Shown here: piece by piece, positions 4,873 to 51,016 of the stretch
How the letters are laid out: every line of letters starts with the position of its first letter
Numbering within the stretch: the first letter of the stretch is position 1
The notes under the pieces: model-generated
Told to the model about the DNA's origin: nothing
The model's input: the letters and a program-made list of their open reading frames with translations, nothing else
The model's database searches: none
Position numbers and translations under genes: made by a program
Assembly (NCBI RefSeq): GCF_001625445.1
Contig: NZ_LWHG01000029.1
Coordinates: 310,001-374,000 of the forward strand
DNA length: 64,000 nucleotides
Source: Haladaptatus sp. R4
GTDB taxonomy: Archaea; Halobacteriota; Halobacteria; Halobacteriales; Haladaptataceae
Direction of reading: 5' to 3'

Positions 4873-6215
4873 ATGCCCACCGAATCGGCGGTCATCGACA
4901 TCTGTGCGGGTGATGACGTGGAACTCGTCCGACTGCTTTGGGTCGACAACGCGGGCGTCGAACGGGGGCGGGTCGTCAACGCGGCGAACGTCGAGGACGT
5001 TTTCGTCTCCGGCGCGAACATCGCGCAGGCCCAACAGGCGTTCACCGACCTCGATTACCCCACCGAGGATGCGCCGCTGGGACGCGTCGGGGAGGTCAGA
5101 CTCGTCCCGGATCCCGACACCTTTCGAACCCTCCCGTACGCCGAACGCGCCGCGGCGATGATGTGTGACATCCATCGACTCGACCGGACGCCGTGGGAGA
5201 TCGATCCCCGGTCACGGCTTCGCAGCTTTCTCGACGAATTCGAATATCGGTCGCGCGCCGCGTTCGAACCCGAGTGGTATCTCGTCCGGGAAACGGCGGC
5301 GGGAATCGAACCGTTCGACCGAAGCGGCTGTTACACGGCGGACGGGATTCAGAGCGCCCACGACGTCGTCCTCGAAATCGTCGACGATCTCGCGGCCCAG
5401 GGGATCGAGATGGCGACGTACTACCCCGAGTACAGCCCCGGTCAGCAGGAGATCGCTATCGAACCCGGCGACGGCCTCACCCCGGCGGACGACCACGCGT
5501 TCTACAAACAGACGGTGAAAGCGGTGGCGGAAAACCACGATACCAGAGCCACGTTCTCCCCGAAACCGTTTCCCGACCACGCGGGTAGCGGGTGCCATCT
5601 CCACCTCTCCCTCTGGAACGGGGAGGAAAAAACGTTCACGACCCGGACGACGAGTCGCCGTACGGGATTTCGGAGACGTGTAAGCGGTTCGTCGGTGGCG
5701 TGCTCGCCCACGCGAGGGCGCTCGTCGCGCTGACGGCACCCTCGGTCGTCTCGTACAAACGACTGCAACCGGGTTCGTGGGCGTCGGCGTACACGGCGTG
5801 GGGGCTCGACAATCGGGAAGCGATGGTGCGCATTCCGTCCGCACAGTGGGAGAACGCCGCGGCCACGACTCGTCTGGAACTGAAAGCCGCCGACAACACC
5901 GCGAACCCGTACCTCGCGCTCCTCGGCGTCCTGGCCGCGGGGCGGGACGGCATCGAGCGCGGCCTCGACCCGGGAGAACCGCTCGACGTCGATCCGGGGA
6001 GCCTCTCCGAATCGGAGCGGGAACGTCGCGGTATCGAACGGCTCCCGCAGTCGCTCGGCGAGGCCATCGACGAACTCGAAGCCGACACAGTCCTTTCGGA
6101 CGCGATGGGCGACGACCTCCATCGGACGTACGTCGCGGTGAAGCGCGCGACGTGGACCGATGCGGCGACCGCGGTCACCGATTGGGACGTGGAAACCTAC
6201 ACGCGGCTCTACTGA
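4873..6215 (+). pseudogene. glutamine synthetase family protein (FluG C-terminal type), frameshifted
   Basis: A glutamine synthetase-like, ATP-dependent ligase joining an amine to glutamate. The first frame (ATG at 4873) carries the beta-grasp N-terminal part and reaches FPDHAGSGCHLHLSLWNG, the usual GSGxHxHxS nucleotide/metal motif. The protein continues in another frame from GGKNVHDPDDESPYG to the end, including ADNTANPYLALLGVLAAG. The shift falls in the A6 run at 5627-5632; one more A restores a single frame of about 447 residues, the normal length. Both halves are well conserved, so a sequence error is likely. It is paired with the divergent amidohydrolase. It resembles gamma-glutamyl-polyamine-type ligases more than classical GlnA. 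Confidence 0.85.
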
Positions 6216-7701: not shown

Positions 7702-8599
7702 TTAGTCGTCGATGCGCGCTTCCGTTCCCGCGAGGTCCTCGATGACCTGCATCACGCCGGAGTTGTCGTCACGGCCGCGTCCCGTGGTCTCCATCGATTT
7801 GTACAGTTCGTGTGCGACCGACGTCTGTGGGAGCGGGACGCCGAACTCCTCACCGGCGTCGGTTGCGATTCGGAGGTCTTTGTACTGATACGAGGCGAAA
7901 AAGCCGGGATCGAAGTCCCCCTCGATCATTTGTGGCGCGCGGTTGTCGAGCGTCCAACACCCCGCGGCACCGCCGCTGATCGCGTCGATCACGGCTTCGA
8001 GATCCGCACCCGCTTTTTCCGCGAAGACGAGGGCTTCGCTGACGCCGACCATCTGTGCCGAGACGACGATCTGATTGCACGCCTTCGTCGTCTGACCCGC
8101 GCCGTTCGGCCCGCAGTGGGTAACCGTCTCGCCCATGACTTCGAAGAGGTCCATCTGCTCGTCGAACACCGCCTCGTCGCCGCCCGCCATGATGGAGAGC
8201 GTTCCTCTACGCGCCGATTTCGCCGCCGCTGATCGGCGCGTCGAGCATGCTCGCGCCCTTCTCGGCGATGTCCGCGGCGAGTTCTTCGGTCGTCGTCGGC
8301 GAAATCGTGGACATGTCGATGACCGTCATGCCCTCGCTCACACCCGCGAGGATTCCGTCGTCGCTCCGGACGATTTTCTCGACGACCGCCGAATCCGGCA
8401 GACACGTGATGACGACGTCGACCCGCTCCGCGACATCGCGCGGGGAATCGCCCGCCGCACCGCCGTACTCGACGAGTTCGTCAACCGGTTCCTGTGAGCG
8501 ATTGTACCCGACGACGTCGTATCCCGCGTCGATGAGGTTCTTCGCCATTGGTTTCCCCATGATTCCGAGTCCGATGAAGCCGATATTCTTCCCTGTCAT
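7702..8599 (-). pseudogene. NAD(P)-dependent beta-hydroxyacid dehydrogenase (GarR/3-hydroxyisobutyrate type), frameshifted
   Basis: Enzymes of this family reduce tartronate semialdehyde or oxidise 3-hydroxyisobutyrate-type acids. The N-terminal frame (ATG at 8599) shows the dinucleotide fold IGFIGLGIMGKPMA and the substrate motif DAPISGGEIGA. It then stops; a different frame from about 8196 continues with SIMAGGDEAVF, GPNGAGQTTKACNQ (holding the catalytic Lys) and the helical C-terminal domain. A net +1 or -2 shift lies at about 8190-8206. Joined, the protein has about 298 residues, the usual family length. Alternative substrates (glyoxylate, succinic semialdehyde) cannot be excluded. Confidence 0.85.
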
Positions 8600-8706
8600 C
8601 GTTTGTTGGTTCGTGTGCGACAGCAAAATTATGGGGGTAACGGCGAGGCGGATGGGTTCGGGTTTCGAACCCGTGGTGATTTCCGGTACTGCGTCCAGTC
8701 GTCGGG

Positions 8707-10310
8707 TCAGTCGTCGCTGGTAACGGACCGATTCGGCGACTGACTCGATGCCGGTTTCGGGGAGATGTCCTTGCGCCGAGCGTCCAAACCGGAGAACGCG
8801 TACACCAGTGCGATCAGCGTCACGAGGCCGATGGGGAGCAGAACGAGCGGGCCGACGTTCGTGAGTCCGTACAGCAGGTATAGGAACGCCGTCGCCGTGA
8901 GGACGGTGAACGCGTAGTACATCTGCGTTCGAACGTGATCGATGTGATCCGATCCGGCGAACGTCGATGCGAGGACGGTCGTGTCCGAGATGGGCGAGCA
9001 GTTGTCCCCGAAGATGGCTCCGCTAAACATCGCGCCGACCGAGACGGCGATGAATCCGGGGGAATGGCCACCGATATTCCACGCCAGCGGAATCACGATG
9101 GGAGTCATGATGGACATCGTCCCCCACGAGGTGCCGATGGCGAGGGAGATGACGGCGGAGATGAGGAAGATGACGACGGGGAGCACCGTCGGCGAAACCG
9201 TTCCCGATGCGTACTGCGTGACGTACTGGCCGGTCCCGAGCGCCGACGCCACCGATCCGATGGACCACGCCAACACGAGGATACTGACCGCCGGAAGCAT
9301 CGTTCCGAACCCGTCGAGGATGGTGTCCATCGTCTGGTCGAGCGTCATGATTCCCTCCCCGAGCGCCAGCGCGATGGCCGTGGCGACCATGGCGAACGAC
9401 CCCCAGACGAGTGCGGTGGCGATGTTCGTGTTGTTGACCATCTCTATCGTCGACCGACCGGGACTGTATCCCATCATCACCGCGCCACCGACGAGACGGC
9501 GACGAGCGCGAAGACGGGAAGGACGAACGTCCGAAGGGGAGCATCGTCGTCCAGCGGTTTGCCCAGATCATCCTTGATGTTCTGAAGCGGGTTCGCGTCG
9601 TCGCGGATGACGTTGCCGGTCCGCTGTGCGCGGTTTTCGGCGTCCAGCATCTCGCCGAAATCCCGGCCGCTGATGACGATGATGCCGACCATCGCCAGCG
9701 CCAGTATGGAGTACATGTTGTACGGAACGCTGTGGAGAAACGTCGCGGTCGCGGTGGGGGTCTGTTCGGCGATTCCGAGCTTTTTGTACTGATCCGCTAT
9801 CAATCCTATTTCGAACGCGACCCAACTGGAGATGCCGATGGTCGCCATCGGCGCGGCCGTCGAATCGAGGATGTAGGCTAACTTCTCGCGCGACATTCGC
9901 TTCTCGTCGGCGATGCTCTTCAGCGAACTGCCGACGATGGCGTTGTTGGCGTAGTCGTCGAAGTTCCAGATGAGGCCGAGCAGCCACCCCACGACCCCGA
10001 CCTTTCGATGGGAGTCGATCCGCCTCGTGGCGAACCGCGTTATCGCCATCGCGCCACCTAACCGCCAGATGAGCGCGATTCCGGCCCCTAAAAGCATAGT
10101 AAAGACGAGAATCTTCGCGTTGAACGTGCTGTTCCCGATGGAGTTGATTATCCAATCGAACGTCTTCGCGATGCCGACGTTTCCGCTGTAGATGATGCCG
10201 CCCGTCCAGACGCCGATGAAGAGCGACAGCATCGCCCGGCGCGTGATAACGGCGAGCACGATGGCCAAAACGGGTGGTACCAGTGATAACGCTCCGAAAT
10301 CCGATGGCAT
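8707..10310 (-). pseudogene. NhaC-type Na+/H+ antiporter family protein, frameshifted
   Basis: A polytopic transporter of the NhaC/IT-like antiporter family, exchanging Na+ and H+ or a related solute. The first frame (ATG at 10310, MPSDFGALSLVPP) runs to LRTFVLPVFALVAVSSVA; the rest continues in another frame with VMMGYSPG. One missing base near 9480-9487 explains it (GCGCGG where GCGGCGG is expected). Conserved segments include IWNFDDYANNAIVGS in the first part and GTSWGTMSIMTPI and IFGDNCSPISDTT in the second, characteristic of NhaC proteins. The joined protein has about 534 residues. An upstream in-frame start at 10325 is possible. Confidence 0.87.
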
Positions 10311-10417
10311 GCTATGCTCCTTCACACCACGGGTTAATAGTGGTTTTTGCCGATGTTGATAAACCGGCCGGTTCTCTGAATTTTATGTCGAGCGGGAACT
10401 CGCAGTGGTAACGACGG

Positions 10418-15788: not shown

Positions 15789-16948
15789 TCAGCCGATACG
15801 GTACCGTTCGATCTTGTCGTGATCGATTTCGATCCCGAGGCCCGAACCCCGTGGCACGTCGAGCGTGCCACCGGTGCAGTCGAACGGGTCCTCGATAACG
15901 TCGTCCTCCCAACCGTAGTAGACCGAATCGGGCGGGAGCGAAAAACCCGGTATTCCGTGGACCGCGTGCAGAATCGCCGCCGTTCTGATTCCGAGGTCGA
16001 ACGCGCAGTGATGTGCCATCGGGAGTCCGGCGTCCTCCGCGATGGCCGCCTGCTGCCGCAATCCCGCTATACCACCAGCGGGGGTCAAATCCAACACGGC
16101 GACGTCGATTGCCCCTGCGTCGATGAGTCGCCGCAGGTTGTGCGGAATGTAGGTGTCCTCGTTCGGCCCGACCGGTTGTCCGGTGCGCTTCAGTCCGGCC
16201 AAGGACTCGTGTGCATCGACTCGGATCGGTTGTTCCATGTACTGGAGATAGATCCCGGCGTCGGCGAGCATCGAACCGACGCGGATCGCTTGGTCTGTGG
16301 TCCACCCCTGATTGGGATCGAGACGGAACTCAAGTTCGCCATCGACCGCGTCGTGCATCGCCTCGATACGGGCGACGTCCTCCTTCCAGTCCCGCCCGGC
16401 TTTCGTCTTCAGCACGGAGTATCCCGCGTCGCGCACGGCGACGGCGCGTTCACGGGACTGCTCGGGCGACAGGATTCCGAGGCAGTACGCGATTTCGACC
16501 TCGTGGCCCTCCCCGTATTCCCCCTGGTGCTCCCGGTGTCTCGTCTCCGTCTGGTTCGGTGTTGTCCATCCGCCGAGCAGTTCGTATATCGGTTTTTCGA
16601 GCGACTTGCCGACGATGTCCCAGCAGGCGACTTCGACGGGTGCGAAGAACGGGTCGCGTTGGCGTACTCGATGAACACCTGCCGCCGGAGTTTTTCCAGT
16701 TCGAACGGCGATTGACCGACGACGAGGGGGCGAATCCCCTCCTCGATGATGGCGACGGTCGCTTCCGGCGTCAGGAACACGCGAACCTCCCCCCATCCGG
16801 AAATTCCCTCGTCGGTGTCCACCCGAACGAGGACGCGGTCCATGTCCGTCAACGAGTTGTGATTCGTGACGTAGGGTCCGATGCCACCGTCTTCGAACGG
16901 GACGAGCGGGACGTTGACGACGACCGCTTCGATATCCGTGATCTTCAT
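15789..16948 (-). pseudogene. mandelate racemase/muconate lactonizing enzyme family protein, frameshifted
   Basis: An enolase-superfamily sugar-acid dehydratase, racemase or lactonizing enzyme. The N-terminal capping domain starts at the ATG at 16948 (MKITDIEAVVVNVPL) and reaches FIEYANA. The barrel resumes in another frame with DPFFAPVEVACWDIVGK. One G is missing at about 16654. The barrel shows the KTKAGRDW segment with a catalytic-type Lys, the metal-ligand strand RLDPNQGW, then MEQP and GPNED. Joined, the protein has about 386 residues. The lack of the ERLYSRW motif separates it from the two DgoD-like genes in this window. Substrate unknown. Confidence 0.85.
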
Positions 16949-17176
16949 GGAGAGGAAATCATCACCGCGTGAGTCTGTGAGGGTTCGTTCCCGGACGCGT
17001 CGGCCCAACCGACGCGTTCCGTATTCGGATACTGGTATGCCATAGAATATCTCTCATAGCCGGTGATGATAAATCCGTATCATCGGACTACGCGTCGGTA
17101 AATATGGCAAACATATTAATATATAGCCAACAGCCGTTAATTTAATTAATTACGACCTTCGAATCTCAACTGGATC

Positions 17177-17977
17177 ATGAAACCCAATCGACGGCGGTTC
17201 CTGAAAGGTGCGAGTGTCGCCGGACTCACCACGATGAGTGGTTTGGCGTTCAGCGGCACGACGACTGCCGCGTCCTACACGATAGACAGCGACCTTCGGC
17301 AGACCGTCGGAATCTCCGGTAGCCAGCTCGACTCGGCGGTCGATTCGGTGTCGCCGGGGAGTCCGCTCGTCGGGCTCGGCGACACGTGGGTCGACGTCCA
17401 GAACAATCGAAACATCAACGCGGTGTACATGGCGGCCCACGCCGCGCTCGAATCGGCGTGGGGACGGAGCAACATCGCACAGGAGAAGAACAACATCTAC
17501 GGCTTCAACGCACGGGACATCTGCCCGGCGGAGTGTGCCGACGGATACGCGTCGTTCGAACAGTGTGTCCGCCAAGTGATGGCGTACGTTGACGAGGAGT
17601 ACCTCTCCACGGACGGGACGTACTACGAAGGTTCGACGCTGCGCGGCATGAACGTCCACTACGCGTCGGACGACCAGTGGGCGGAGAAGATCGCAGACAT
17701 CATGAACGACATCGCCGCAGAGCTTCCCTCGGGCGGTGGCGGCGACGGCGGAAGCGGCGGCTTCGCCGACGGCGACCAAGTGGCACCGACGACGGCGTTG
17801 CACACCCGGAAACAGCCCGGTACGGACCAGACGGTCGTCGCAACGATCTCGGCTGGCGAGGTCGGCGAGATCATGAACGGTCCCATCGACAAGGACGGGT
17901 ACACCTGGTGGGGCGTCCACTGGCTCGACCGCGGCGTGTGGGGCTGGTCGGTCGAACGCTACCTCACCGACGCATAG
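17177..17977 (+). CDS. secreted glucosaminidase (GH73-like) with C-terminal SH3-type domain
   Basis: A 266-residue exported enzyme. Residues 1-32 form a Tat signal (NRRRFLKG). Residues about 75-185 are a glucosaminidase/lysozyme-like domain: AALESAWGRSNIAQEKNNIY (89-108) holds the catalytic Glu92 and the NNIYGF motif of GH73-type enzymes. A Gly/Ser/Asp linker (186-198) leads to a bacterial-SH3-like domain (199-266, ending YTWWGVHWLDRGVWGWSVER). Known relatives cut the glycan of bacterial peptidoglycan between GlcNAc and MurNAc. Haloarchaea have no peptidoglycan, so the target is probably bacterial walls or another GlcNAc polymer (inference). It is followed 20 bases later by an amidase gene with the same SH3 module. 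Confidence 0.88.
   Translation: MKPNRRRFLKGASVAGLTTMSGLAFSGTTTAASYTIDSDLRQTVGISGSQLDSAVDSVSPGSPLVGLGDTWVDVQNNRNINAVYMAAHAALESAWGRSNIAQEKNNIYGFNARDICPAECADGYASFEQCVRQVMAYVDEEYLSTDGTYYEGSTLRGMNVHYASDDQWAEKIADIMNDIAAELPSGGGGDGGSGGFADGDQVAPTTALHTRKQPGTDQTVVATISAGEVGEIMNGPIDKDGYTWWGVHWLDRGVWGWSVERYLTDA
17818..17967 (+). repeat. SH3-module DNA duplication, copy 1
   Basis: The roughly 150 bases coding for the SH3-type module are almost identical to 18190-18340 in the next gene; differences are mostly third-position changes. Two stretches of more than 40 bases each are exact. This suggests recent duplication or gene conversion. Confidence 0.8.
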
Positions 17978-17997
17978 TACTCACAACTCACCGATTC

Positions 17998-18901
17998 TCA
18001 TCCAGCAACAACGGCAACAACGGCAACAACGCAACAACGACACGAAAACTCGATCGACGATCCGCGATCAAGACCATCGGAACCGGCGCGGCAGGCATCG
18101 GCATCCCGATCGCACTGAGCGGTTCGGCGGCCGCATTCAGCGACGGCGAAGAGGTCGAAGCGACGACTGCACTGAACACCCGAGAACAGCCAGGCACGGA
18201 CCAGACGGTCGTCGCTACGGTGAACGGACGGCGAAGTCGGCGAGATCATGAACGGTCCCATCGACAAAGACGGGTACACCTGGTGGGGCGTCCATTGGCT
18301 CGACCGCGGCGTGTGGGGCTGGTCGGTCGAACGTTACCTCACGTCCACCAGTGGCGGCGGTAGCGGCGGTTCCAAGCCCTCGGTGACGTTCGACCAAGCC
18401 GCGTCGGGCAACTACGCGGCGGCAAACCGAACGGCGAGCGACATCAACTGGATCATCATACACACCATCCAAGGCTCGTACGAGGGTGGCATCAGCGTGT
18501 TCAACGATCCGGATTCCGGCGTGAGTGCCCACTACGTCGTCGGCAACAGTTCGGGACAGATCACCCAGATGGTGTACGACGACGACATCTCCTACGCGGC
18601 CGGGAACTACGACTACAACAGCGCGGGCCTCAACTTCGAGAACGAGGGCTACGCGTCCGAAAGCCATCCCGACCAACTGTATCAGAACCTCGCCTCCATC
18701 GTGAGTTGGGCGTGCGAGGAGTACGGCATTCCGAAATCCCACCCGACCGGCGTCGCTCCGGCGGACCCGGCCGACGGATCGGGTATCATCGGTCACGAAC
18801 AGGTTCCCGACCCCGACAACCCCAGCGTCGGCGGTGGCGCGAGCCATCACACCGACCCGGGCAGCGGGTGGGAGTGGGACTACTTCATGAGCCTCCTGTA
18901 A
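17998..18901 (+). pseudogene. secreted N-acetylmuramoyl-L-alanine amidase with SH3-type domain, frameshifted and without a clear start
   Basis: An exported zinc amidase of about 300 residues that would cut the peptide stem from MurNAc in peptidoglycan. In order: an Asn/Thr-rich lead, a Tat signal (DRRSAIKTIG ... LSGSAAA), an SH3-type module, a Gly/Ser linker and an amidase-2 domain. The amidase shows IIIHTIQGSYEGG (first His ligand), SAHYVV, AAGNYDYNSAG, NFENEGY and SHHTDPGSGWEWDYF with the second His ligand. A net +1 shift at about 18226 separates signal plus half the SH3 module from the rest. No ATG, GTG or TTG lies between the previous stop (17977) and the Tat motif in any frame, so the start is lost or unusual. 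Probably co-transcribed with the glucosaminidase. Confidence 0.83.
18190..18340 (+). repeat. SH3-module DNA duplication, copy 2
   Basis: Nearly identical to 17818-17967 in the preceding glucosaminidase gene. The extra base at 18226 is absent from the first copy. Confidence 0.8.
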
Positions 18902-19850
18902 AATCGTCCCGCGCAAAACGCACGGAGTTCGCTGATTTTTGACCGTCGTCGGGGATCACACTGATCGACATCACTCGTTCATCAGGAACGCCACTCCGTG
19001 ACACGCCTTTCTACAATCTCTCACAATAGGTACCTCAGATTCAATTCCCACCGATTTAACGTATCTATTCTATCTTTCCTATTTCACCTACCTTAGCTAC
19101 TTCACCTACGCTTCCCATCTGTCCTTTTCCCCATCCCTGTGCTTTCCTCCCTCTTACACCACTACCTGAACTACTTATTGAATCTATGCTACCTAAGATA
19201 CCTATCGCAAATTGTTCACCTATCCCCACTTGTTCCATCCCTTGCCATTCCGCTGCGGTACCCTCACCGTCTCGCCTGATTACCCATCTCACCTATTCTA
19301 TCTATTTCACCTATTCCTATGTTTTAGTCCGTCTACCCCTCGCATTCCCCCCAACCCGTGATGTTACCGATCCTCCCCGCGTGTTATTCATCCCCCCGTG
19401 TCTCCTTTTTCTGTCCCACCTATTGCTACTATTTTGGATTAACTACCTATTCCCACTACCCTGTCTATTTCGACTCTCGTTCCTATCTTCAGTTTCCCAT
19501 CTATCCCACGCGGCCTACTCTATCTGTGCTACCTATTCCATCTATCCAACCTATCCGACCTATTTTATCGATTCTAGCTATCCCAACGCCTCTATCTATT
19601 TCATCTACCCTCCACATTTCATCTGTTCTATCTCACCCATTCCAGATATTGTTCCTATCCTTTCTCGTTCACCTATTCTACCTACTCCACCTATTCTATC
19701 TTTTCTACCTATTCTACCTATTCTACCTTTCTCACCTGCTTTGCCTCTCGTCCGATTATTCGCGGTTGTTCGGTTCCCGATGGTTCGACCGTTATTTCGT
19801 CCACGTGTTGTCGATACGATTATGAGGCGTGCCCACGGATGGCACGCTGA
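18902..19850. other. intergenic spacer, 949 bases, mostly pyrimidine-rich repeat
   Basis: No gene is supported. The first 120 bases are ordinary intergenic DNA; the rest to about 19750 is the pyrimidine-rich tract. Two long plus-strand frames (19186-19854 and 19358-19825) cross it, but they consist of Ile/Pro/Tyr/Ser/Leu repeats that simply translate the repeat and look nothing like the acidic proteins around them. Confidence 0.7.
19040..19750 (+). repeat. pyrimidine-rich degenerate repeat tract
   Basis: About 700 bases of almost only C and T with regularly spaced A on the plus strand. The recurring words are CCTATTC, ACCTATTCTA and TCTATCTA. At about 19668-19735 it becomes a near-perfect 9-base tandem (ACCTATTCT). 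Upstream the spacing drifts. Shorter related patches lie at 2775-2860 (opposite strand) and 35260-35370. Confidence 0.75.
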
Positions 19851-26350: not shown

Positions 26351-27049
26351 TCAGTCGAGGAACTCGGAGGCCCGCTCGTGTAGCGGGACGAATCCCTCGG
26401 CGAACCCTGCGCCGCGCGTCCGTCCGAGAACGCGCGCTTGCGCCCTCACGTCCGCCAGTATGTCCTCGAACTCGGAATCGACGCCGCCGTGTTCGTTCAA
26501 CCACTCGACCTGCGATTCGTGTTCGAGGATGGCCTCCTCCTTGGTCGATTGCTGTTCGCTGATATCGATGTACACCTCCGGTTCGAACGACGACGTCGCC
26601 TTGCCGAAGTAGTAGACGTTGTCGGGTTCCCACGGTTCGTCGTCCGTTTCCAACAGCGGCAGTGCGGCCATGTAGTACGCGTCCGTCACCAACCGCGACG
26701 TGGCTCGATGGTCCGGATGCATGTCGTCGCTGAAATGCGTGAGAACGACGTCGGGCCGGTGCTCGCGGAGCGCTTCGACGAGCCGGAGCCTGTTTTCCAT
26801 CGAGTACGTGATCCGTCCGTCTTCGAAGCCGAGGAACGCCGTTTCCGCGCCGAGCGTCTCCGCCGCCGCCTCGGCTTCCTTCTCACGCGTCGCGGCGACG
26901 GCCGACTCGGTGGTGTCGAACCCGCCGTACTCGCCGCGCGTCATGTAGACGACGGTCACGTCGTCGCCGCGTTCGGCGTGCTTTGCGAGGGTACCGCCAC
27001 AGAAGATGTCGGCATCGTCCGGATGTGCAACTACTGCTACGAGATGCAT
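26351..27049 (-). CDS. PIG-L (LmbE-like) family deacetylase
   Basis: A 232-residue zinc-dependent hydrolase removing N-acetyl groups from GlcNAc-type sugars. The zinc motif AHPDD is at residues 8-12, and the third ligand lies in THFSDDMHPDHRATS. The ATG at 27049 (MHLVAVVAHPDD) is chosen over a GTG two codons upstream. In a region rich in chitinases and sugar dehydrogenases, an N-acetyl-glucosamine or chito-oligosaccharide deacetylase would make sense, but other acetylated sugars or thiol-type compounds are possible. It follows the sugar isomerase gene on the same strand with a 49-base gap. Confidence 0.92.
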   Translation of the reverse strand: MHLVAVVAHPDDADIFCGGTLAKHAERGDDVTVVYMTRGEYGGFDTTESAVAATREKEAEAAAETLGAETAFLGFEDGRITYSMENRLRLVEALREHRPDVVLTHFSDDMHPDHRATSRLVTDAYYMAALPLLETDDEPWEPDNVYYFGKATSSFEPEVYIDISEQQSTKEEAILEHESQVEWLNEHGGVDSEFEDILADVRAQARVLGRTRGAGFAEGFVPLHERASEFLD

Positions 27050-27098
27050 ACACACGAACCTACTCCAAGCGGGTAATAAATATTGTGTCGCCGGTGTG

Positions 27099-42534: not shown

Positions 42535-44204
42535 CTAGAGATGGTCGAGCATCGCGTCCAGCAGCACCTCGTTCTTGTCGTTGGCGAACGCCCAGAACAT
42601 CACCCCGCCGAAGTCGTTGTCCACGGCGTAATCGGTCTTGGCACCGATGGACTGCTCGTTGTCGTAGGTGATGAAGATGTCCTTCGACGGCGAGTAGAGC
42701 CACGGGACCTTCGCCGTGTCGTCCCAGTAGTAGTCGTACGCCGAACTCGGTTCGAGGTTCTGATTGATGTCCCAGAACTCCTTGACGCCGTTGTCCTGCC
42801 CCCACGTTCCGCTGGCGGCGCCGTCGAACGACTGGTACAGCCCGTCGTTCGTGCTGCTCGTGACGTTGGCGAAGCTCCGGCCGTAGAACGGCATCCCCAT
42901 CGAGAGCTGTGACGCGTCGAACGCCGTGTTGGCCCAGTAGTTCATCGAAGCGTTGACGTTGAAGTCCGACGCCCGCGGCGACGGGTCGTTCGACTTGGCG
43001 TACAGCGGCGCGTCGTGGTTGGTGTAGTCGTCGAACGCGCCGTGGTAGTCGTAGGCCATGACGCTCGCGTAATCGAGCGCCTCCGCGTTCGCCGCGTGGT
43101 CCAGACCCTCCGCCTTGTCGGGGTCGGCGGACATCGCCGCGGTCAGGAGGTACTCCTTACCGTCCGCCGCCTCGGCGTCGTCGAGTTGCGAGCGGACTTC
43201 CTGCAGGAGCTTCGTGAACCGCGCCTTGTCACCGTCGCGGACGACGTTTCCGGATTTGCCGCCGCCGCCCGGATACTCCCAGTCGATGTCGATGCCGTCG
43301 AAATCGTTCTCCTGCATGATGTCGATGGCCGTACTCGCGAACCGCTCGCGGTTCGCCTGCGTGTTGGCCGCATCGGAGAAATGCGTCGAATCGCTCCATC
43401 CGCCGATGGAGAACAGGAACTTCGTGTTCGGGTCGTCCACGAGGCTGTCGAAGCCGGTCCAGTCCTGCCACGACTTCGGTTGGAGAACGTTCATCGCCGC
43501 GCTCTCCTGAATGTAGTCCACGGTGCCGTCCTGTTCGACCGTCAGGAACGCGTAGTTGACGTGCGACACCTTGTCCACCGGGATGTCGCCCGGATAGTAG
43601 TCCCGGTCCCATTGGGACCACTGCATGTAGTAGCCCGTGACGCGTTGGTCGAGCGACGTTCCGCCGTCGGCGACGGTGACGGTCTTCGTCGCGGAACCGG
43701 TCGCGCCCGAATCGTCGGTCACGGTCAGCGTGACGGTGTAGTTACCGGCGCTGCCGTAGCTGTGCGTGACGCTTTGGCCAGTCGCGCTGCTGCCGTCGCC
43801 GAACGTCCAGTCGTAGGACGTCACGGACCCGTCCGAGTCGGAGACCCCGAGGCGTCGAACGTGGCCGTCTCACCCGGCGCGGGTGAAATCGGGTTCGCGG
43901 TAAACGAGGCGGTCGGCGCAGTGTTGCCGTCCCCGCCGTCGCCACCGTCACCGCCGCTCCCGTCGCACGGGCCGACCTTCACCCAGACGGAGTCGCTCGT
44001 CTCGGGTTCGTTGGCTTGCGTCCACCATTGGGCCTCCCAGAGCGCGCCGTCGTAGACGACGCGGTCGCCGTCCGTGTAGGCGACGTCCGACTGCCAGTCG
44101 GAGTAACCGCTGCAGTCCGCCGCCGTCGCCAGCCCGCTCGCGCCGAGCGTCAGCGCTGAAAGTGCCGATACCTTGCGTAATACGTTGCGTCGCGTTTGTT
44201 TCAT
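42535..44204 (-). pseudogene. secreted GH18 chitinase D, frameshifted
   Basis: A chitinase of about 556 residues joined, closest to chitinase B in its catalytic domain. The Tat signal (QTRRNVLRKVSAL, ATG at 44204), CBM5/12-like module (GYSDWQSDVAYTDGDRVVYD), Gly/Asp linker, PKD domain and GH18 barrel are in order. The catalytic motif is DGIDIDWEYPGG; FLFSIGGWSDS and MAYDYHGAFD also fit. A base is missing at about 43840-43846 in the PKD domain (SGSS becomes SGSP plus a shifted frame). It stands alone, about 2.5 kb from the other three chitinase genes, and reads leftward as they do. Confidence 0.9.
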
Positions 44205-47036: not shown

Positions 47037-47564
47037 TTATTCGAGTCGTTCGATGAGCGATGCAGTCGCGTCCGGCAGCAACGCCGCCGTGAACGCGTGT
47101 GCGGCGTGTTCTTCGAGACGCCGATGAGACGGCCGTGACGGTCGCCCGATTCCGAGCCACCCGGTGATTCGGGCGAGCGGGCGACGACGGTCCCGGTCCT
47201 TCCAATCCGGCGCTCGCGTCTCCAATTCGTAGTGGGCCAGTTCGTGGGCACAGACCGCCGTCCGAAGGGCGGTGTGGTCGAAATCCGCGTCCGCCGCGAC
47301 GCGCCCTATTTGCGCGTCGTACAGCGTGATGACGCCGTTCGCGTAGGTGCCGAGCAGTCGTACGGCGTCGAGACCGTCCCAGGCGTCCTCCGCGATTCGA
47401 ACACCCTCCGCTTCGGCGATTCGGTACGGGTCGGCGGTTCCGTGTCTCGCCCGGATGGCACGAGCACGGCGTCTTCCCGTCGATTTCGCTCGATCGAGTG
47501 ACGAAATCGGTTCACCCCCTGCGTCTCGGCTCTCGTCCGCCGAGTTTTGAACCCCTCCGCTCAT
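47037..47564 (-). CDS. ImmA/IrrE-like zinc metallopeptidase
   Basis: A 175-residue protein with the zinc motif HELAHYELE (HExxH at residues 107-111). The preceding part (DPYRIAEAEGVRIAED, LLGTYANGVITLYDAQ) matches the layout of ImmA/IrrE peptidases: short helical N-terminus, beta-strands, then the HExxH helix. Such proteins often cleave repressors; this one has no helix-turn-helix of its own. Its ATG overlaps the stop of the HyuA-like gene (47561-47564, ATGA), so the two are translationally coupled. Such a pairing is unexpected, and a target is not evident. It could also be a degenerate or specialised peptidase. Confidence 0.7.
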   Translation of the reverse strand: MSGGVQNSADESRDAGGEPISSLDRAKSTGRRRARAIRARHGTADPYRIAEAEGVRIAEDAWDGLDAVRLLGTYANGVITLYDAQIGRVAADADFDHTALRTAVCAHELAHYELETRAPDWKDRDRRRPLARITGWLGIGRPSRPSHRRLEEHAAHAFTAALLPDATASLIERLE

Positions 47565-49704
47565 GGTTTCTCCGCGATGATGACGAGTTGCTCGGAGTCG
47601 GGGAGTTCGCCGAACTCGACATCGACCAGCGAGTGTATCTGTTCCCGCGAGGACACTCCGCTGACGTCCAGTAGTTGGTGACCGTGACAGACGTAGAGGT
47701 TGGGGAGTTTTGCCGAGGCGTTGCTGAACACGGATTCTTCGTCCAGCACCTTGCCCACGACCCGGTCGAGGATTTCCCCGGTCGCTTTGTAGACGCTGGC
47801 GTCGTTCAACTTGAGCTTGATGACGCCGCTTTCGTCGACTACGGCGGTTCGATTCGTGCTGTTCGTCACGAGACCGAAGAACTTCGAACTCGTCTCCTCG
47901 GCCTGGAAGACGGACAGTCCGTCGGTCGAAGCGACTCGATCGATGGTTACCGCATCGGCGTCGAGGCTCGACGCGGCCGTCTCCCTGAGTTCGCTCTCGT
48001 CGACCGCGCCCTGTGAGAGGTCGCGGGTTTGGAGTTCGGTCGAACCTTCGGCTTCCGCGCGGAGCAGGTTGCGCGAGCCATCGAACTCCACTTTCGCCTC
48101 GACGGTCTCCTGATTCGCGCCCATGCCGACCACGGAGTCGATTGCCTCCCGTCGGAGCTGTTGGATTTCGTCCTCGCCGGGGTCCATGACGTTCCGTTCG
48201 ATGACGTCACGGACCATCGCCAGCCCGACGCCGATGGTGCTGATGGTCTCGTGATTGCGCGCGAGTCGGGCCTCGTAGTCGGTCGTCCCGGACAGGTACG
48301 GGACCAGCGCCGCGCTGCCACCACCGCCGCCGACCAATTCGAGGAGGTTCGTGTCGAGGTCGTACTCCTCCACGATGTCCTCGATGACGGGGAGTATCTT
48401 GCCGATGCTCGCATCGAGAACCATTTCGGCGGCCGTCTCGACATCGACGCCCAGTTCCTCGGCGAGCGGTTCGAACGCGCGCCGCGCCGACTCCGGGTTC
48501 CCCGCCGCGTACGCGTCCTCACCCACGTACCCCAGCAGGTTCGCCGCGCCGCTCGGCGTGAGCGCGTACCGGCTTCCGTCCTCGGTTTCGACCGCGACGT
48601 ACTCGGGGTCCTCCGGTTTCGGGCGGACCTTCACGAGCGACGGTGAGCGGATTTCCTCGCGGTCGGCGTACACCGCGTACGGGAGGTCCGCGATGTGGGC
48701 GCTTCGAGGACCGACTTCGGCGATTTCGTCGCCGTCGAGACGGATCATCGACCCGCCGGCGATTCCCTCGGTCCGGATGTCGAGCGTTCGAGGAACGTCG
48801 TGTGCCCCCCGATTTCGGCGGCCTTCCACTTCGGTTGTCCCCGTTCGATGACGCTGATGTCGCTACTCGTTCCGCCGACCTCGATGAAGATGCCGTCGGT
48901 GATGTTCTCGTACATCAGCGCGCCCGCGACACCTGCGGCCGGGCCGGAGAGGATGGTCTGGATGGGACGGCGCTCCATCTCCCCGATTTCCATGACGCCA
49001 CCGTCCGACCGCATTATCATCAGCGGCGCATCGATACCCATGCCGCCGATGCTCTCGACCGTCGAACGCGAGGTCTCTATCATCCGCGGGAGGATACTGC
49101 CGTTGACGACCGCGGTTCTGGTTCGGACTTTCAGTCCGTATCGCTTCGAGACGACGTTCGCCCCGATAGCGGCGAGTCCGTCCTCGACCACGATGTCACA
49201 CACCGCATCCTCGGCAGTCGGGTCGTCCACGCCGAACGCTTCGCTCACGACGACGGCTTCGACACCGCTCGCCTCGAACCCATCGAGAATCGTCCGGATT
49301 TCGTCCGTCGGAATTCCGTCGTCCAGCATGACGAACCCGTGGTCGCATTCGATGACCTGCGTGTCGTTCAACGAGATGTTGCCGACGTCGGTTTCGGACC
49401 GGCCGCGGCGACCTTTGAGGCCGCGACCCATTCCGATGACGCCGACTTTCGCGACGTCGCCTTCCAACAGCGCGTTCGTCGCCTGCGTCGTCCCGTGTGC
49501 GATAAACACAACGTCGTCGGGGGTCGCGTTCACCGATTCGAGGACGGTCGAAGCCGCTTCGACGATGCCCGCCGCTACCCCGGCGTCCGCGTCGTGGGTC
49601 GTCGGTACCTTCACCTGTTCGATGAGTTCCAAGGTGTCGGTGTCGATAGCCACCGCGTCCGTGAACGTTCCGCCGACGTCGATCCCGATGCGTATCCGTG
49701 TCAT
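47561..49704 (-). pseudogene. hydantoinase/oxoprolinase family protein (HyuA type), frameshifted
   Basis: An ATP-dependent ring-opening hydrolase of the hydantoinase A/5-oxoprolinase/acetone carboxylase beta family, about 714 residues joined. The ATG at 49704 begins MTRIRIGIDVGGTFTDAV, the phosphate-binding motif of the actin-like ATPase fold. FIAHGTTQATNALLEG, MRSDGGVM and SGPAAGVAGA follow, then GGTSSDISV. One base is missing in the C6 run at 48805-48810 (G6 on the coding strand), after KAAEIGG; the second frame continues to the stop at 47561. No HyuB partner is seen. It starts two bases behind the permease stop and overlaps the ImmA-like gene. Confidence 0.9.
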
Positions 49705-49705
49705 T

Positions 49706-51016
49706 TTAGAGTCCAAAGAGGTAGACCGAGACGATAACTCCTACTGCCGCCGTCGCCCACGCGAACGGGAGGATGCTTTTCGTTATCTCGTTGACGTTGA
49801 TATCCATCTCGTCGGCCGTCCACGCGTTGTGCGTGTTCGTCGGATCGGCCGGTGCCTGCACGCGGAGCGCGCTTACGGCCGTCGTCGTGATGAGCGCCGG
49901 GTTGATTCCGATGGCGGCGAGCACGCCGATAATTCCGCTTCCAAGCCCCCACAAGTTCAGCGGTCCGCGATACAGCGCCAGCGGGGCTAGAACGATGAAC
50001 ATCACCGCGTAGAGTATCATGTTCTGTGGGATGATGAGGGTCAACAACGGTTTCATCGTCGCCGCAACCGGCTCCGCGAAGACCGCTTGGAGAAGCCACC
50101 CGATTGCCACCATCAGCGCGATGGCGGGTGCAGCGTCCGAAATCCCCTCGTGAAACGCGTACGTGACCTGATTGAGGGTCCCTTTCAGGTTCTTGAACCC
50201 GGCCAGTCCGGGTTTGCTCGCCACCGCCGCGTACAGGATTCCGATGACGAAGGCGGGGAGAACTGGACTGCCGACGATTACCAACAGCACCGGCAATATC
50301 GGCGCGAGCAGTGCGTACGTCGGCACTACGGACTCGAACTGTTGTTCGATTTCGTCCGACGTGACGGACGCATCGTCGGCGCTCGTCGCCCACGTCGCCT
50401 GAATGTTGCCCCGGTGGGTCTGAAATCCGATGTACGCCAGTCCCGCGATCAGCGCCGCGATTCCGGTCGGAATCGCCCAAGACAACACCCGTTGCAGTTC
50501 GATTCCGGTCACGTCGGCGTAAAACACCCAGTTGGCGGGATTGAACATGACGCCGTTCCCGTACGCGAGGAGGACGATTCCGGCCGCGATTTTCCGTTGA
50601 AAGCCGATACTGACCATTATCGGGAAGACGATGGTCGCGATCATGATGAACGCGCCCAGTCCCGAAATGCTGGTCGCGATGACCGCGACGGCCAGATAGA
50701 GCAGAATCGAGACGACGATCGCGTTATCGCCGCCGAGTTCCGCGGCCGACTTCACTATCTCCTCGGCGATACCGGTCTGCTCGATCATCGCCCCGAGTGC
50801 GGCACCGAAGAACACGGCGACGAACGCCGATGCCAGCCTCGTCGAACCGCTTACGATGACCGTATTCGTTATTCCATTCAGTCCAAGCCCACCGACGGCC
50901 GCGATACCGAGCGCCATTGCGGCCAGTGCCACGAAAGTAGGCATGAGTTCCGTCATCATCAGAATTCCGAACACAGCGAACACGACGAGAATTCCGATTG
51001 CCCCGATGAGTTCCAT
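49706..51016 (-). CDS. ion transporter-superfamily organic acid permease (GntT/CitM/DctM-like)
   Basis: A 436-residue membrane protein with about twelve hydrophobic segments. MELIGAIGILVVFAVFGILMM starts at the ATG at 51016; the frame is open 30 codons further upstream but without membrane-protein character. AVFFGAALGAMIEQTGIAEEI, and ISGLGAFIMIATIVFPIM are like the two halves of GntT or dicarboxylate-type transporters; a hydrophilic loop (QATWATSADDASVTSDEIEQ) separates the halves. Placed before the HyuA-like gene, it probably imports the cyclic amide or an organic acid precursor (inference). It is divergent from the second IclR gene. Confidence 0.8.
   Translation of the reverse strand: MELIGAIGILVVFAVFGILMMTELMPTFVALAAMALGIAAVGGLGLNGITNTVIVSGSTRLASAFVAVFFGAALGAMIEQTGIAEEIVKSAAELGGDNAIVVSILLYLAVAVIATSISGLGAFIMIATIVFPIMVSIGFQRKIAAGIVLLAYGNGVMFNPANWVFYADVTGIELQRVLSWAIPTGIAALIAGLAYIGFQTHRGNIQATWATSADDASVTSDEIEQQFESVVPTYALLAPILPVLLVIVGSPVLPAFVIGILYAAVASKPGLAGFKNLKGTLNQVTYAFHEGISDAAPAIALMVAIGWLLQAVFAEPVAATMKPLLTLIIPQNMILYAVMFIVLAPLALYRGPLNLWGLGSGIIGVLAAIGINPALITTTAVSALRVQAPADPTNTHNAWTADEMDINVNEITKSILPFAWATAAVGVIVSVYLFGL

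Follow-up and report, generated by a model that had tools for sequence, protein, structure and literature searches.

Bacteria-killing peptidoglycan hydrolases of archaea are already known: according to the main text of Strock et al. 2025 (PMC12352652), the haloarchaeal enzymes Danwoldo and Woldo kill Halalkalibacterium halodurans. The enzymes presented there are GH73 and M23 proteins carrying PG_binding_1 domains, and the same text leaves open whether archaeal hydrolases serve defence, predation or scavenging, remarking of the clustering of antibacterial genes that it 'is by no means guaranteed'. As that article describes it, the underlying survey required a catalytic Pfam domain together with a wall-binding Pfam domain.

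The window analysed here, a 64-kb stretch (64,000 nucleotides) of the genome of Haladaptatus sp. R4, carries two neighbouring genes, referred to below as gene 1 and gene 2 (Table 1). Haloarchaea are themselves without peptidoglycan. A preliminary description had read the pair as two tandem hydrolases, both with a Tat signal and an SH3-type module; this holds for gene 1, which is intact, and not for gene 2, which is split and has no start. The Tat motif of gene 1 is RRRFLKG, and its signal scored 16.7 bits against TIGR01409, exactly at the cut-off of 16.7, and 17.2 bits against PF10518, under the cut-off of 22.7. The GH73 domain was found well above its curated threshold (65.2 bits versus 30.2), and Glu92, named beforehand as the catalytic residue, is the invariant glutamate of an HAA(L/W)E motif on a conserved helix in the alignment of archaeal, bacterial and phage relatives. 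The gene 1 product is predicted to cleave GlcNAc-MurNAc bonds. By sequence its closest solved relative is LytB of Streptococcus pneumoniae (E=2e-24), and the AlphaFold model (mean pLDDT 76) matched LytB (Foldseek E=5.9e-10), AtlE and the Atl glucosaminidase.

Table 1. Positions in the window of the features of gene 1 and gene 2.
Feature	Position	Strand	Evidence or remark
Gene 1, Tat-type GH73 glucosaminidase with C-terminal SH3-like module	17177-17977	+	266 aa, intact
Gene 1, Tat signal MKPNRRRFLKGASVAGLTTMSGLAFSGTTTAA	17177-17275	+	sequence; TIGR01409 and PF10518 scores
Gene 1, GH73 glucosaminidase domain (PF01832)	17384-17713	+	residues 70-179, E=1.2e-17
Gene 1, catalytic Glu92	17450-17452	+	motif HAALESAWG
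Gene 1, SH3-like module	17765-17965	+	alignment; Foldseek match to C. perfringens bacterial SH3
Gene 2, 5' piece in frame 1: ACG at start position, Tat signal, N-terminal SH3 half	about 18037-18225	+	sequence, comparison with orthologues
Gene 2, frame break, one extra base relative to gene 1 SH3	about 18225-18232	+	DNA alignment
Gene 2, 3' piece in frame 2: C-terminal SH3 half and Amidase_2	18248-18901	+	ATG at 18248; PF01510
Gene 2, conserved amidase ligand positions His72, His183, Asp203	18461-18463, 18794-18796, 18854-18856	+	invariant in alignment

The C-terminus of gene 1 was modelled as a beta-barrel region and has an SH3 fold, as judged from its match to the clostridial bacterial SH3 structure 2krs (Foldseek probability 1.0, E=5e-3, TM 0.64 of target). 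The domain search that had been proposed returned PF01832 and PF01510 above their cut-offs and left the SH3 family PF08239 (SH3_3) below it, at 13.8 bits against 27; divergent homologues of the module in other haloarchaea do exceed that cut-off. Under the survey rule of PMC12352652, as described in that article, gene 1 would probably be missed, its catalytic domain passing and its SH3 module falling short. Surveys that rely on Pfam binding domains are thus likely to undercount such enzymes.

Residues 3-196 of gene 1 also matched NF052335 (NCBIfam) with E=3e-75 and 253.6 bits, under the 500-bit equivalog cut-off because the remainder of the protein differs, the PG_binding_1 part being absent. 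NF052335 is named after Halogranum salarium HSB1_29560, which we take to be Danwoldo, the link between locus tag and name being our own; NF052336 (HSB1_00310) is likewise presumed to be Woldo. Together with the domains, this family match supports the idea of putative peptidoglycan-acting enzymes in an archaeon that lacks the polymer. GH73 relatives are present in bacterial phages (best 44%), but in the tree the archaeal GH73s clustered together, separate from the six sampled sequences of bacteria and phages.

Gene 2 retains an Amidase_2 domain. Its 3' open reading frame matched PF01510 (E=5.8e-21, 75.6 bits versus a cut-off of 26), its product is 75% identical to the SH3-amidase of Halocatena marina, and the proposed zinc ligands His, His and Asp are all retained in the alignment. 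Structure prediction, suggested as a check on both enzymes, was informative for gene 1 and uninformative for this frame (mean pLDDT 44.6). No ATG, GTG or TTG was found in any frame between the stop codon of gene 1 and position 18220. The orthologue in a related genome (G084) begins ATG-ACA-CGA-AAA-CTC, and gene 2 reads ACG-ACA-CGA-AAA-CTC at 18037-18039 and onwards. As the gene is split, has no normal start codon and carries its Tat signal in another frame, no secreted amidase can be made from it as assembled, and the reading of the window as holding two intact, working secreted enzymes is not supported. In the sister species Haladaptatus sp. DYF46, gene 1 is kept at 87% identity and gene 2 is a shredded remnant, which again has ACG at the start position, contains a stop and a deletion, and is missing the amidase. 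Both Haladaptatus copies (window 18037-18039; L035) thus carry ACG at a position that is ATG in other genera.

Whether gene 2 is broken in the cell or in the assembly was considered from both sides. Within the 64-kb window and the single loci covered by these counts, at least six genes of the window besides gene 2 are split, adjacent open reading frames carrying complementary parts of one protein or Pfam domain (a chitinase, a Na+/H+ antiporter, a hydroxyisobutyrate-dehydrogenase type protein, an enolase-superfamily protein, a hydantoinase and a glutamine synthetase), and NamZ and AnmK of the same genome are likewise split by frameshifts as assembled. Six split genes lie at window positions 4873-6215, 7702-8626, 8707-10325, 15789-17008, 42535-44204 and 47561-49716. 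Either the assembly contains many indel errors or the contig is full of pseudogenes; with so many split genes in the window and at NamZ and AnmK, assembly indel errors are likely, and the frameshift of gene 2 may be one of them. The change from ATG to ACG is not accounted for by an indel error. The amidase frame nevertheless looks alive from its sequence: its branch carries 26 synonymous and 16 nonsynonymous changes (26/15 in gene 1), 26 of the 42 fall at third positions, its end branch in the tree is 0.19 against 0.13 and 0.16 in intact orthologues, and the ligands are kept. A long-dead pseudogene was rejected on these grounds, the branch being not long and the changes mostly synonymous, as in gene 1. 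On the sequence evidence gene 2 would be either very recently disabled or still working from some other start.

We lean towards the former. A recently inactivated pseudogene is suggested by two independent lesions, the missing start and the frameshift, and by the far-decayed state of the same gene in DYF46, although the pervasive frameshifts of the assembly put one of these lesions in doubt and the amidase frame shows strong coding constraint. An intact gene in the living cell, with the frameshift an assembly error and translation beginning either from the ACG or from a start further upstream that escaped recognition, can be held only tentatively. It draws on the other split genes, NamZ and AnmK included, and on a coding constraint equal to that of gene 1 with no long branch, and a non-canonical start may be used. 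Against it stand the ACG shared with the DYF46 remnant, which goes beyond what an indel error explains, the lack of any ATG, GTG or TTG upstream, and the clearly dead DYF46 copy. In Haladaptatus halobius one more amidase gene (G001:C1:2514504-2515021) contains a stop codon and gives split matches, a further sign of gene loss in this family.

Further along, a pyrimidine-rich tract of about 0.8 kb (window positions 19000-19850) contains degenerate repeats of 9 bases (ACCTATTCT and similar) and has a GC skew of about -0.6 and a GC content of 45-48% against a background of 60-65%. The enolase-superfamily gene beside gene 1 was considered as a muropeptide epimerase and this was not established, only MR_MLE domains being found in a gene that is itself split.

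Among 394 Halobacteriales genomes the SH3 module was present in 56 and GH73 in 22. A pattern-based scan of GTDB genomes found this SH3 subfamily in Halobacteriales only, with no bacterial bearer; a viral origin was also rejected, no relative being encoded on any IMG/VR contig. The bearers of the module combine in cassettes. In G084 the order is GH73-SH3 > SH3-M23 > SH3-amidase, the M23 enzyme matching NF052336 with E=7e-59, and in Halocatena marina it is SLT-SH3 > SH3-M23 > SH3-amidase, with GH73-SH3 located elsewhere. An SLT-SH3 > SH3-M23 pair occurs in H. pleomorpha, H. salina (plasmid NZ_CP096020), YIM A00010 and YIM A00013, and Halocatena pleomorpha and YIM A00010 have in addition an adjacent amidase and GH73, both without SH3. 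The same activities are found fused, as amidase-SH3x4-GH73 (G118, G301), amidase-SH3x2-GH73 (G283), GH73-SH3x2-M23 (G212) and SLT-SH3-M23 (G354). The glucosaminidase-amidase association with a common binding module, proposed from the window alone, is thus recurrent, as adjacent genes in G084, H. pleomorpha and YIM A00010 and as the first three of these fusions. Most other Haladaptatus species carry amidase-SH3, SLT-SH3 and SH3-M23 genes, unlinked, and several have GH73 fused to two PG_binding_1 domains, which is the plan of Danwoldo. A search of the genome of Haladaptatus sp. R4 found neither the SLT-SH3 nor the SH3-M23 enzymes of its relatives. The window GH73 and the window amidase each grouped with cassette members in the trees (support 100/100).

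SH3 modules within one genome are alike across different partner domains: in 17 of 39 cases the nearest module was one of the same genome, where shuffling would give 1.1. This likeness suggests gene conversion or recent shuffling, and would fit one shared target. An 855-aa secreted protein of Actinarchaeum halophilum and YIM A00013 combines DUF900 (alpha/beta-hydrolase-like), four SH3 modules and Amidase_2 (L124:18266-19897, L132:12698-15265). A GH73 match of 3e-37 (L096/L163), far above that in any other haloarchaeal genome, lies on an 8.6-kb contig (G346:C34) that is possibly bacterial contamination.

NamZ belongs to an exo-acetylmuramidase family specific to peptidoglycan. Of 394 genomes, 26 contain it, and every one of the nine Haladaptatus genomes is among these. 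AnmK was found in 23 of 265 genomes, again with all nine Haladaptatus among them; all 23 also hold NamZ, and in 22 the two are adjacent on the same contig, 2.7-16 kb apart. The genome of Haladaptatus sp. R4 has NamZ, a NagZ-like enzyme and AnmK, the set taken here to indicate peptidoglycan salvage, on a contig other than that of gene 1 (L250, G000:C3:73000-90000), where AnmK, NamZ and a NagZ-like GH3 lie with a beta-lactamase-family hydrolase, a Tat GH18 and oligopeptide-transporter ATPases. Across L250, L251-L256 and L258, the salvage loci hold AnmK, NamZ, NagZ-like GH3, beta-lactamase-family and creatininase-family proteins and an IclR regulator, and often add a secreted amidase and an oligopeptide transporter. 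Next to NamZ (L251:9142-10323, L254:10136-11320, L256:6705-7928, L258:16493-17680) lies a conserved protein, VAVWSYPWRLL..., about 395 aa long, whose L251 copy has no Pfam or NCBIfam match and which is a candidate new enzyme of muropeptide use. For the MurQ etherase, only weak, partial TIGR00274 matches below cut-off were found, inside open frames of about 400-650 codons, so that the route onward from MurNAc-6-phosphate is left without an assigned enzyme.

Hydrolase and salvage genes meet at several loci. A Tat-Amidase_2 gene lies inside the NamZ locus in five genomes (three Halorussus, G059 and YIM A00010), the GH73-SH3 gene of H. marina is about 5 kb from NamZ, and around the G084 cassette lie genes for an M55 D-aminopeptidase, a PLP decarboxylase, an oligopeptide-binding protein and an NlpC/P60 enzyme. 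Leaving out Haladaptatus or its family only partly removes the kinship of the genomes from the co-occurrence values, which for NamZ and Amidase_2 were p=6e-14 (Fisher), 1e-7 without Haladaptatus and 5e-4 without its family, and for GH73 and Amidase_2 p=2e-10 and 5e-6 without that family. Outside Haladaptatus, NamZ was present in only 2 of 12 GH73-bearing genomes, a weak overlap (p=0.09), and some genomes have hydrolases and no NamZ.

Taken together, the reading we prefer, with a probability of about 0.68, is that SH3-targeted hydrolases serve feeding on bacterial peptidoglycan, with muramic acid salvaged, and that the two window genes represent a haloarchaeal cassette in reduced form. Gene 1 would be a Tat-exported endo-beta-N-acetylglucosaminidase (GH73) whose SH3b-like module holds bacterial peptidoglycan, and the remains of gene 2 would be those of an SH3-targeted N-acetylmuramoyl-L-alanine amidase, a partner that is either former or mis-assembled. 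In an intact cassette a glycan-strand cutter, either GH73 or a lytic transglycosylase, would be joined by an M23 endopeptidase and an amidase. Each would be Tat-exported with the same module, and together they would dismantle walls outside the cell, with mostly Gram-positive bacteria as targets. Fragments would enter the cell by an ABC transporter of the oligopeptide type, and NamZ, the NagZ-like GH3 and AnmK would recover the sugars, the main use being food from the peptidoglycan of dead or killed bacteria. The sequences themselves show the domains, the conservation of catalytic residues, orthology, genes that cluster or are fused, and co-occurrence with salvage genes, and from these we infer secretion, substrate, killing, uptake and nutritional benefit. 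That Haladaptatus, Halorussus and Halocatena species can live on bacterial peptidoglycan by means of SH3-targeted cassettes and a NamZ-NagZ-AnmK-oligopeptide transporter locus we regard as evenly balanced.

The link of hydrolase genomes to muramic-acid salvage makes peptidoglycan feeding the likeliest main use, and favours killing as a means to, or a by-product of, digestion for food. An antibacterial weapon, secreted chiefly to kill competing bacteria as for Woldo and Danwoldo, with nutrients incidental, would share its catalytic families with these two proven killers as described in PMC12352652, and both the patchy distribution given above and the resemblance of multi-enzyme cassettes with one common targeting module to bacteriolysins speak for it. 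The strong association with NamZ, AnmK, oligopeptide-transport and dipeptide-degradation genes would, however, be unexpected for a pure weapon, and we consider the weapon reading unlikely; killing and feeding are not mutually exclusive, and killing without feeding is possible in the genomes having hydrolases but no NamZ. The window does hold the four chitinase (GH18) loci and the PIG-L deacetylase (26351-27055) noted in the preliminary description, two of the GH18 loci being split or truncated as assembled, all within 30 kb, and GH73 enzymes cut GlcNAc linkages, so that gene 1 might serve the surrounding chitinase region in breaking down chitin or another N-acetylglucosamine polymer. This we judge very improbable, since the amidase, M23 and lytic transglycosylase partners have no chitin substrate, the nearest solved relatives LytB and AtlE are peptidoglycan enzymes, and the closest haloarchaeal family is the bactericidal Danwoldo. 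The suggested feeding on amino sugars finds better backing in NamZ, AnmK and the NagZ-like gene on another contig than in the chitinases.

In a literature search that left most subscription journals outside its scope, no description of SH3 cassettes or of NamZ and AnmK in haloarchaea was found. Haloarchaeal hydrolase genes do cluster, in cassettes and fusions with one common targeting module, and the strong enrichment of hydrolase-bearing genomes in muramic-acid salvage genes makes the question of food or weapon testable in culturable species. If the feeding reading is true, archaea that lack peptidoglycan would for the first time be known to have a catabolic pathway for it, and these archaea would eat bacterial walls besides killing bacteria. 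The cassettes are also predicted to provide a set of salt-stable bacteriolytic enzymes.

Danwoldo (Halogranum salarium J2ZJU5, NF052335) and Woldo (J2ZZK6, NF052336) share Tat export and the catalytic families of gene 1 and the cassette M23 enzyme, but have two PG_binding_1 domains where gene 1 and the cassette enzymes have the SH3 module. In the main text of PMC12352652 each is presented as a protein on its own, and neither an amidase or transglycosylase partner nor a salvage locus is described. Peptidoglycan recovery in Bacillus subtilis (NagZ-NamZ, AnmK and dppA/ykfC-type dipeptide use) has NamZ, a NagZ-like GH3 and AnmK in common with the haloarchaea, and its dipeptide use is paralleled by the D-aminopeptidase (M55), NlpC/P60 and oligopeptide-binding protein adjoining the G084 cassette; in contrast to bacterial recovery, these archaea have no peptidoglycan of their own to recycle, and MurQ was not found. 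LytB, the GH73 enzyme that is the best solved relative of gene 1, functions in daughter-cell separation and, unlike gene 1, carries choline-binding repeats. The pairing of glucosaminidase and amidase around a shared module, initially thought unusual, follows the plan of staphylococcal Atl, in which an amidase, SH3-like repeats and a glucosaminidase join the same two activities by SH3-like wall-binding modules, and with which the G118, G301 and G283 fusions share their domain order. However, Atl remodels its own wall, of a kind that these archaea do not have, and unlike Atl the archaeal activities are mostly encoded by separate genes, with M23 or a transglycosylase added.
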